DNA from: Oscillospiraceae bacterium
GTDB lineage: Bacteria > Bacillota > Clostridia > Oscillospirales > Acutalibacteraceae
Length of the DNA stretch: 36,135 nucleotides
Reading direction: 5' to 3'
NCBI GenBank assembly: GCA_031290105.1
Contig: JAITOD010000098.1
Location: 1 to 36,135 of the forward strand
Below, piece by piece: positions 15,099-22,302 of this stretch (position 1 is its first letter; each line of letters starts with the position of its first letter). The position numbers and the translations under genes are program-made. Below the pieces are notes generated by a model. That model worked only from the letters and a program-made list of their open reading frames with translations, searched no databases and was not told the DNA's origin.

Positions 15099-15725
15099 GT
15101 GAACAGTTTGTCGGAAGAACCGGAGCTCACGGAGCAAAACAACGAGCGGGAAGCTTGGTCTTTCGGTGAGGCTGTGATGCGCACCCTGTATGATTTGGCT
15201 TCCGTTGCGGTGTCAGCCGTGGTGGTGGTTTTGTTTGTGTTTGTGTTCGGCTTCCGCATGGTGGGGGTTGTGCAAAGCTCCATGCGCCCAACGCTGGAGC
15301 CAGATCAGAGCCTGATTGTCACCGCGTTTATGCCGCACGTCAAACAGCACGATATTGTAATAATCACCAAGCCCGGCTATAAAGATCCGCTGGTCAAGCG
15401 CGTGATTGCAACTGGCGGTCAGACCCTGCGCATTGATTTTGCGGCGGGTGATGTTTGGGTGGACGGCGTTTTGCAGGACGAGGCGTTTATCAGCGAGAAA
15501 ATCACAATAAAAAGCATCCAGAATTTTCCGCTAAATGTTGACACTTGGGTGGGCGAGATCACCGTGCCGGAGAAGTCCGTGTTCGTTATGGGCGACAACC
15601 GCAACGACTCCCGTGACAGCCGTGACGAGGCAATCGGCTGTGTCCGCGAGGAATATCTGCTTGGCAAAGTATTGTTCCGTATCAAGCCTTTTGGTCAGTG
15701 GGACGTTTACAGGACGACGCCGTGA
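15099..15725 (+). CDS. lepB: Signal peptidase I
   Basis: VVQSSMRPTLEPDQ catalytic Ser region, KDPLVKRVIATGGQTL catalytic Lys region, VMGDNRNDSRDSR. Confidence 0.93.
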   Translation: MNSLSEEPELTEQNNEREAWSFGEAVMRTLYDLASVAVSAVVVVLFVFVFGFRMVGVVQSSMRPTLEPDQSLIVTAFMPHVKQHDIVIITKPGYKDPLVKRVIATGGQTLRIDFAAGDVWVDGVLQDEAFISEKITIKSIQNFPLNVDTWVGEITVPEKSVFVMGDNRNDSRDSRDEAIGCVREEYLLGKVLFRIKPFGQWDVYRTTP

Positions 15726-16585
15726 GCGCCCCGCCAATCCAGTGGTTTCCGGGGCATATGGCAAAAACTCGCAGGCTTATCCGTGAGAATTTGCACCTGT
15801 GCGACGGTGCCGTGGAGATAGTTGACGCGCGGGTGACGCGGTCCGGGCGCAACCCCGAAATTGAGAAGCTATTAGCGGGCAAGCCCCGCATTTTGTTGTT
15901 GAATAAAGCTGACCTGGCAGACGCGGACGCTACCGCGCGCCGGGCCGCTGAGTTGCACCACGAGTCTATTGCCGTGCTGCCTGTTGATTGCCGTAGCGGG
16001 CGGGGACTGAACGCCTTCGCGCCGCTTGCCCGCGAGGTTTGCGCTGAACAAGCCGCGCGAAACAAGAGCAAGGGTATGGTTGGGCGCGCGCTGCGGTTCA
16101 TGGTGGTGGGGATTCCCAACTGCGGCAAGTCGTCGTTTATCAACCGCATGGCAGGGCGTGTGAAGGCGGAGACGGCTGACCGTCCCGGCGTGACCAAGCG
16201 AACAAGTTGGTTTGCAATCGGCGGCGGTTTGGAGCTCTTAGACACGCCCGGAGTGCTGTGGCCAAAGTTCAGCGACCCGACTGTTGGGTTGCGCTTGGCG
16301 TTTATCGGCTCAGTTAAGGATGAGGTTCTGGATATTGAGGAGCTGGCGTGCTCTTTCCTGCACATTGTGCGGCGGCAGTACCCGGAGCGGCTGGCGGAGC
16401 GGTACAGCGTTATATGCAACGCCGGCACGGACGGCGACCCCTTCGCGGACTACGAACTGCTGCGCCAACTCGCGCTCTCGCGGGGCTTTTTGCTGCGCGG
16501 CGGCGAGGCGGATACTCTGCGCATGGCGCACACTCTGCTGGACGAATACCGCGGCGGCAAACTCGGTCGGATAAGCTTGGACTGA
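15722..16585 (+). CDS. rbgA: Ribosome biogenesis GTPase YlqF/RbgA
   Basis: IQWFPGHMAKTRR, permuted GTPase motifs NKAD then GIPNCGKSSFINR; GTG start overlaps the lepB stop by GTGA. Confidence 0.95.
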   Translation: MSAPPIQWFPGHMAKTRRLIRENLHLCDGAVEIVDARVTRSGRNPEIEKLLAGKPRILLLNKADLADADATARRAAELHHESIAVLPVDCRSGRGLNAFAPLAREVCAEQAARNKSKGMVGRALRFMVVGIPNCGKSSFINRMAGRVKAETADRPGVTKRTSWFAIGGGLELLDTPGVLWPKFSDPTVGLRLAFIGSVKDEVLDIEELACSFLHIVRRQYPERLAERYSVICNAGTDGDPFADYELLRQLALSRGFLLRGGEADTLRMAHTLLDEYRGGKLGRISLD

Positions 16586-16596
16586 CAGGCATCCTC

Positions 16597-16636
16597 AAAA
16601 AACTGCCGCACCGGAGGGGAGGACTCCGGCGCGGCA
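16597..16636 (-). terminator. Intrinsic terminator, copy 1
   Basis: Minus strand tgccgcgccgga-gtcctcccc-tccggtgcggca-gTTTTTT, one G-U pair in the stem. Confidence 0.8.
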
Positions 16637-16731
16637 TGGAGGAGAGAAAATGAGAAAAAGACTATTTATGTTAGGCTCTGAAAGCCTATTGCTTGGCTCG
16701 GAATTCGCGTTGCAAGGTCTTGTTTGTTTAT
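16597..16731 (-). ncRNA. Candidate small regulatory RNA, copy 1
   Basis: Minus strand: TGaTATACT (16738-16746), hairpin TAGGCT/AGCCTA, CU-rich CTCTCCTCC, then a 12-bp terminator stem with 9-nt C-rich loop and T6. Confidence 0.55.
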
Positions 16732-16901
16732 GAGCAAAGTATATCATGCTTTGCAGCTGAGAACTACCACATTGGGGCAACAGTTTAGAATCAGTTTGGT
16801 TGCGGGTTTATAAATTTTGTTACATTTTGTCACTAAACCGTGTGCTTTTAGTGGCGTAATTGTTGCTTTTGCGTGTGATTCCGCCAATCCGGAAGCCGGG
16901 C

Positions 16902-16941
16902 AAAAAACTGCCGTGCCGGAGGGGAGGGCTCCGGCACGGCA
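16902..16941 (-). terminator. Intrinsic terminator, copy 2
   Basis: Minus strand tgccgtgccgga-gccctcccc-tccggcacggca-gTTTTTT, perfect stem. Confidence 0.85.
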
Positions 16942-17036
16942 TGGAGGAGAGAAAATGAGAAAAAGGCTGTTTATGTTAGGCTCTGAAAGCCTATCGGTTG
17001 GCTAGGAAATGGTGCTGCAATGTCTTGTTTGTTTAT
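16902..17036 (-). ncRNA. Candidate small regulatory RNA, copy 2
   Basis: Same architecture: TGgTATACT (17043-17051), TAGGCT/AGCCTA hairpin, CTCTCCTCC, perfect 12-bp terminator stem and T6. Confidence 0.55.
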
Positions 17037-17153
17037 GTGCAAAGTATACCATGCTTTGTTGTCGAAAACTACCACATTAGGGCAACAGTTTAGAATCAGT
17101 TTGGTTGCGGGTTTATAAACTCGGTTACATTTTGACACTAAGCCGCGTGTTTT

Positions 17154-17531
17154 TCACGGCGCAGTTGTTACTTTTGCGGAAAATTCCGCCAATTCGGAAC
17201 ACTCTGTGCGCTCAAAGCGCAGTGTAAATCGGCGCAGCGTCCTCCCGCCTATGCGCAGATTGCCTTTGGGTGTAACGCGCAGCAGCGGCAGCTCCCCGCA
17301 CAAGGCGTAACCCTCAGGGGCGCGGGTCAGGGCAAGTGTGTATATTCCCGGGCATAGCGGCGGAAAACGCACTGTGCCTTCCGCGCCGCTCTTGACCGAA
17401 AACAGCGGGCAGGCGTTGCTCTGAAGAGTCAGCACCGTACCGGGCAGTCCGGCGCCGCCGTGCTTGTCCGCGGTGCGCAGGGCAAAACGCGCAGTTGCGC
17501 ATGGGCAGAGCCCCTTTGGTATGTGTGCCAT
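17154..17531 (-). CDS. Small SpaA/prealbumin-like-fold domain protein
   Basis: Start MAHIPKG at 17531 with RBS aaggaggcatacatt; ARFALRTADKHGGAGLPGTVLTLQ...GTVRFPPLCPGIYTLALTRAPEGYAL resembles SpaA/Cna-B-like repeats. Confidence 0.65.
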   Translation of the reverse strand: MAHIPKGLCPCATARFALRTADKHGGAGLPGTVLTLQSNACPLFSVKSGAEGTVRFPPLCPGIYTLALTRAPEGYALCGELPLLRVTPKGNLRIGGRTLRRFTLRFERTECSELAEFSAKVTTAP

Positions 17532-17628
17532 AATGTATGCCTCCTTGCTTTTCGGCTGAGTGGGTTGTCCCATTCACAGAATATGCGCTCCCGCCGGACT
17601 GAGTGCCATTCGGCGTATCAAATGGTTT

Positions 17629-22184: not shown

Positions 22185-22302
<118 letters not shown>

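Follow-up and report, generated by a model that had tools for sequence, protein, structure and literature searches.

The window, that is, the entire 36,135-nt stretch analyzed here, contains an ungapped direct repeat (16596-16894 and 16901-17199, spacing 305, 87% identity in a repeat search of the window) located between the convergent genes for an rbgA-like GTPase (15698-16585, plus strand) and a SpaA-fold protein, with a TetR-type gene found beyond the latter. The original prediction described this locus as two abutting copies, aligned at a constant +305 without an indel and about 87% identical, that encode a putative pair of sibling anti-Shine-Dalgarno (anti-SD) sRNAs on the minus strand. 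The repeat search returned the same spacing and identity with 0 gaps, and the coordinates of the duplicated element and most of its other details proved right on re-examination. A search of the source genome (G000) detected no further copies of the element. Elsewhere in the window, positions 22185-22301 (minus strand) hold a lone 5S rRNA gene (94 bits), beside which the Rfam scan of the window listed neither a 16S/23S match nor a tRNA. The features of the two copies are listed in the table.

Features of the duplicated element and the adjacent gene (window coordinates)
Feature	Position	Strand	Basis
sRNA copy 1, predicted ~134 nt, start near 16733	16600..16733	-	Extended -10 upstream, terminator downstream; conserved in G003, G002
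sRNA copy 2, predicted ~134 nt, start near 17038	16905..17038	-	As copy 1, at +305
Copy 1 upstream box, TGTTGC-N5-TGTGGTAGTT, 18 nt before -10	16762..16782	-	Conserved; genus-wide box scan
Copy 2 conserved upstream box	17067..17087	-	Genus-wide box scan
Copy 1 -10 TATACT, TGA before it	16739..16744	-	Sequence reading
Copy 2 -10 TATACT, TGG before it	17044..17049	-	Sequence reading
Copy 1 conserved 5' leader, CATAAACAAACAAGA	16719..16733	-	Four-copy comparison
Copy 2 conserved 5' leader	17024..17038	-	Four-copy comparison
Copy 1 TAGGCT-N5-AGCCTA hairpin	16672..16688	-	Same in both copies; absent in G003, G002
Copy 2 TAGGCT-N5-AGCCTA hairpin	16977..16993	-	Same in both copies; absent in G003, G002
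Copy 1 invariant 18-mer, UCUCAUUUUCUCUCCUCC, anti-SD + anti-start	16638..16655	-	18/18 identical, four copies; predicted unpaired 0.97
Copy 2 invariant 18-mer	16943..16960	-	18/18 identical, four copies; folding prediction
Copy 1 intrinsic terminator, 13-bp stem, C-rich loop UCCUCCC, U6	16598..16636	-	Terminator scan, pair comparison
Copy 2 intrinsic terminator, 13-bp stem, C-rich loop CCCUCCC, U6	16903..16941	-	Terminator scan, pair comparison
SpaA-type prealbumin-like-fold gene	17154..17573	-	Pfam PF17802, E=3.7e-6; same strand as sRNAs, upstream of them

A BLAST comparison with related genomes, which had been proposed as a check, found homologues in two further species of the genus, both represented by MAGs: a match of 72% identity (E 1e-21) in Oscillospiraceae bacterium Gsp477_bin26 (G003, JAIRYC010000102.1) and a short match in Hs463_bin127 (G002, JAISJQ010000064.1). 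Isolate names of this kind presumably come from termite-gut MAGs. Thus, four copies are known from three genomes, two of them in the window genome and one in each relative. BLAST returned no sRNA match in the remaining genus members G001 and G004, but since both genomes are 86% complete, absence from these two is not certain. Rfam models, applied at gathering thresholds and at E<=10, gave only chance-level matches, in agreement with the first reading, which had recognized no family. In a pattern scan of ~85,000 species genomes, 48 stretches were retrieved, with the RNA itself present only in G002 and G003 and the other stretches resembling antisense of ribosome-binding sites (RBSs) or chance; the pattern and filtered searches would overlook strongly diverged relatives. 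Six matches on viral contigs included no sRNA, and covariance-model searches of 300 family, 396 relative, and 394 order genomes yielded no convincing copy outside the genus, those of the extra low-scoring matches that were inspected being ordinary gene terminators or real RBS antisense. One such chance match (L161 in G500) is a gene start, GAGGAGAGAAAATGAAAAAACGC, that follows a TGCCGT...ACGGCA hairpin and resembles the sRNA in antisense. The tandem duplication and the different genomic place in G002 would also suit a mobile or repeat element devoid of regulatory function; however, further copies were found neither in the genome nor at the order level, and strong conservation is confined to defined blocks, which makes such an element extremely improbable.

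The minus-strand extended -10, predicted as TGnTATACT, is present in both window copies (TGATATACT in copy 1 and TGGTATACT in copy 2), and the leader CATAAACAAACAAGA starts 5-6 nt downstream of it in each. All four copies share the promoter layout TGTTGC-N5-TGTGGTNGTT-N18-TATANT (TATACT or TATAAT) and the 5' end CAYAAACAAACA. The conserved upstream box, which was missing from the elements originally listed, has perfect matches at the four sRNA promoters and nowhere else in a scan of five genus genomes; used as a regulon marker, it retrieved no other site in the genus with fewer than two mismatches, and the background at 2 mismatches was equal to that of the control. A scan for sigma-70 promoters detected none at either minus-strand sRNA start because the -35 region is poor. 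The upstream box probably serves as the binding site for a dedicated activator or sigma factor. In front of each promoter, a block of approximately 40 nt (TTTATAAACCCGCAACCAAACTGATTCTAAACTGTTGCCC, minus strand; 16774-16814 and 17079-17119) is identical between the window copies and better kept than the remaining upstream region; it might possibly be a regulator site as well.

The SpaA-like gene lies on the same strand directly upstream of the element in both G000 and G003, where the sRNA is syntenic, following an SpaA-like orthologue (66% identical) with a TetR-type gene beyond it, as in the window. This arrangement would be expected if the element were merely the 3' untranslated region and terminators of the SpaA-like gene, with no separate sRNAs. 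Yet in G002, the element is found on contig C64, away from the SpaA-like gene on C26, without having lost its upstream box, -10, 5' end, or terminator; moreover, promoter and terminator are separate in each tandem copy. A 3' untranslated region is therefore very unlikely.

Both terminator hairpins were recovered on the minus strand by an intrinsic-terminator scan. The C-rich hairpin with T6 is as predicted, but its size is not: the stem comprises 13 bp and the loop 7 nt, followed by G and T6, rather than 12 bp and 9 nt. The loop contains CCTCCC in all copies and is predicted to be open in all four. Between the window copies, one stem pair changes from C-G to U-A and another from G-C to G-U, just as originally described, and the G003 terminator brings one more G-U; such pairs can form only in the minus-strand reading, which sustains the strand assignment made from the first two copies. 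Covariation in homologues, another check proposed at the outset, is seen in this stem, in which three pairs are changed on both sides and two show G-U, and 98% of the stem cells are paired versus 29-57% in slid controls. This covariation is modest because it comes from four sequences from only three genomes, and any terminator would show such changes; it points to a minus-strand terminator and not to a special functional fold. The TAGGCT-TTCAG-AGCCTA hairpin, regarded as invariant in the original prediction, is indeed identical in both window copies but is not a feature of the family.

Between that hairpin and the terminator, each window copy carries TTTTTCTCATTTTCTCTCCTCCAT, and the CU-rich stretch TTTTCTCTCCTCCAT noticed earlier is present and identical in both on the minus strand. 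An 18-mer (TCTCATTTTCTCTCCTCC) shows zero changes across all four copies and is exactly complementary to GGAGGAGAGAAAAUGAGA, in which an SD sequence, a spacer, and an AUG stand in register. The proposed SD complementarity thus stands, although it is not limited to the SD, as the 18-mer also covers the spacer and AUG. The conservation is far above chance, given that four copies agree at every position of the 18-mer, whereas the adjoining RNA, from the 5' end to the 18-mer, shows inter-genome identity of 0.49-0.54 versus 0.46-0.49 for shuffled sequences. Folding predicts the 18-mer to be unpaired in three of the four copies (mean unpaired value 0.97) and partly so in G003 (0.42, with 0.75 for its anti-SD part). 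At the sequence level, the four copies show a conserved promoter box, 5' end, and 18-mer, together with compensatory terminator changes.

On the plus strand, the complement of the 18-mer contains a good SD and an ATG, which open a frame of 27 codons in copy 1, 16 codons in copy 2, and an unrelated 29 codons in G002. The locus could accordingly be read as a plus-strand short-peptide gene, e.g., for a type I toxin that the minus-strand RNA would counteract as an antisense antitoxin. However, the frame of copy 1 is cut short in copy 2 and consists of only two codons in G003 (ATG AGA TAA, Met-Arg-stop), and conservation falls on the promoter, 5' end, and terminator of the minus strand, the only strand on which the G-U pairs are valid. 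The homologues therefore keep the minus-strand elements and not the ORF, the opposite of the pattern that had been named as speaking against the sRNAs. Because of this variation of the frame and the strand of the G-U pairs, the toxin/antitoxin reading was rejected, and a plus-strand peptide appears hardly credible. Two sibling minus-strand anti-SD sRNAs are still the best reading of the locus, now resting on the homologues and on the conservation of minus-strand elements.

In Gram-positive bacteria, RsaE/RoxS employ C-rich motifs for anti-SD pairing, and we know of no anti-AUG extension in these RNAs. They were the comparison originally offered; the likeness in anti-SD pairing holds, but the csRNAs are a closer model because the 18-mer is complementary to SD, spacer, and AUG and not to SD alone, and no RsaE/RoxS covariance model matched even at E<=10. 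The streptococcal csRNAs, which are CiaR-dependent, come in several similar copies with an unpaired region complementary to the SD and start codon; certain members possess no stem-loop besides the terminator, they share a promoter element, and they have been proposed to block start regions in trans (PMC3091779). The window RNAs resemble them in forming similar copies in one genome under a common promoter element, and in the SD and start codon complementarity of an 18-mer that is predicted to be unpaired in three of four copies and partly in G003. They differ in the upstream box TGTTGC-N5-TGTGGTNGTT, in an 18-mer that combines anti-SD, spacer, and anti-AUG and does not vary between copies, and in the tandem arrangement. 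Similarly, LhrC1-5 of Listeria monocytogenes are multicopy siblings in which both a single-stranded stretch and the terminator loop carry redundant CU-rich sites; CUCCC(...)UUUU occurs in three places, including stem-loop A, and LhrC blocks the target start region, with Hfq-independent regulation of lapB (PMC4132741). The window-type RNAs likewise carry a CUCUCCUCC stretch and a CCUCCC terminator loop in all copies, but have two CU-rich sites, one running into the anti-AUG, and no conserved loop A. Neither a csRNA family (compared through Rfam models only) nor LhrC was among the cmscan matches at E<=10, so membership in these families is not claimed. CcsR1 (RF02791, Conserved CCUCCUCCC motif stress-induced RNA 1), named for its CCUCCUCCC motif, matched copy 1 at chance level (15.2 bits versus a gathering threshold of 65.3), and it is known from Rhodobacter, a different phylum.

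Hfq (PF17209) was not found in the five genus genomes, which are 86-94% complete, whereas control genomes were positive; the genus thus lacks the detectable Hfq expected for Hfq-dependent sRNAs. As the 18-mer is antisense to SD-spacer-AUG and predicted to be mostly single-stranded, an Hfq-independent block of initiation is the simplest reading. The extended -10 and the upstream box would start each RNA; target mRNAs would then be bound across SD, spacer, and AUG by the single-stranded 18-mer, possibly with assistance from the terminator loop CCUCCC; and 30S binding would be blocked, lowering translation with no need for Hfq. We consider it quite probable that the two copies are transcribed independently, each into a trans-acting sRNA of ~134 nt that works in this way; their transcription, their pairing with targets, and the resulting repression are what we infer. 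Since the unchanging stretch mirrors an RBS and start codon, the paired RNAs probably shut down protein synthesis from other mRNAs. Most likely, they represent a new lineage-restricted family of Hfq-independent anti-SD/anti-start sRNAs that work in a csRNA/LhrC-like manner without detectable homology. A bolder version, in which a regulator-driven, Hfq-free "universal start-site mimic" (18 nt of perfect antisense to an idealized SD, spacer, and AUG) dampens a whole regulon and was duplicated in one species for dosage, is tentative and rather unlikely. The paired sRNA gene is previously uncatalogued, and its host is an uncultured gut-type bacterium. A genus of uncultured Oscillospiraceae in which Hfq was not found gains a defined sRNA family that comes with a seed and a promoter element as well as a target candidate that can be tested. 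The findings suggest that csRNA/LhrC-style start-site blocking by multicopy CU-rich RNAs arose more than once in Firmicutes.

Outside the locus, the start site in the genome closest to the 18-mer belongs to a PLP-dependent aminotransferase (L033, G000:C70:689-1960), whose RBS, GGAGGACAGAAAATGAC, is a near-perfect match to the 18-mer complement, with a predicted duplex of -22.1 kcal/mol; for scale, start sites in the window give -4.6 to -18.5 kcal/mol. Start sites of its orthologues form duplexes of -20.6 (G003), -15.5 (G001), -12.1 (G004), and -7.6 kcal/mol (G002), so that G001 is intermediate though without a detected sRNA, and this comparison revealed no target conserved across all three sRNA-bearing species. 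Chosen as the best match after the fact, the aminotransferase is a putative target only, and the match is no evidence of targeting. The missing universal target with extended complementarity, along with an invariant 18 nt that exceeds the usual seed length, would fit an RNA-binding-protein site, i.e., a protein-titrating sRNA rather than an mRNA-pairing seed, and a non-Hfq CU-binding protein is conceivable. Such a site is nevertheless improbable: the 18-mer corresponds exactly to anti-SD, spacer, and anti-AUG in the correct register, the anti-SD CCUCCC of the terminator loop is explained by pairing and not required by protein binding, and Hfq was not found in the genus. Pairing with start sites is thus retained as the preferred role of the 18-mer. 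A 3-mismatch match to its complement is seen in the RBS GGAGGGCAAAAAATGAG at G000:C101:583-599 (L037), in front of a gene whose protein start looks, by eye, like that of a nitrogenase component.
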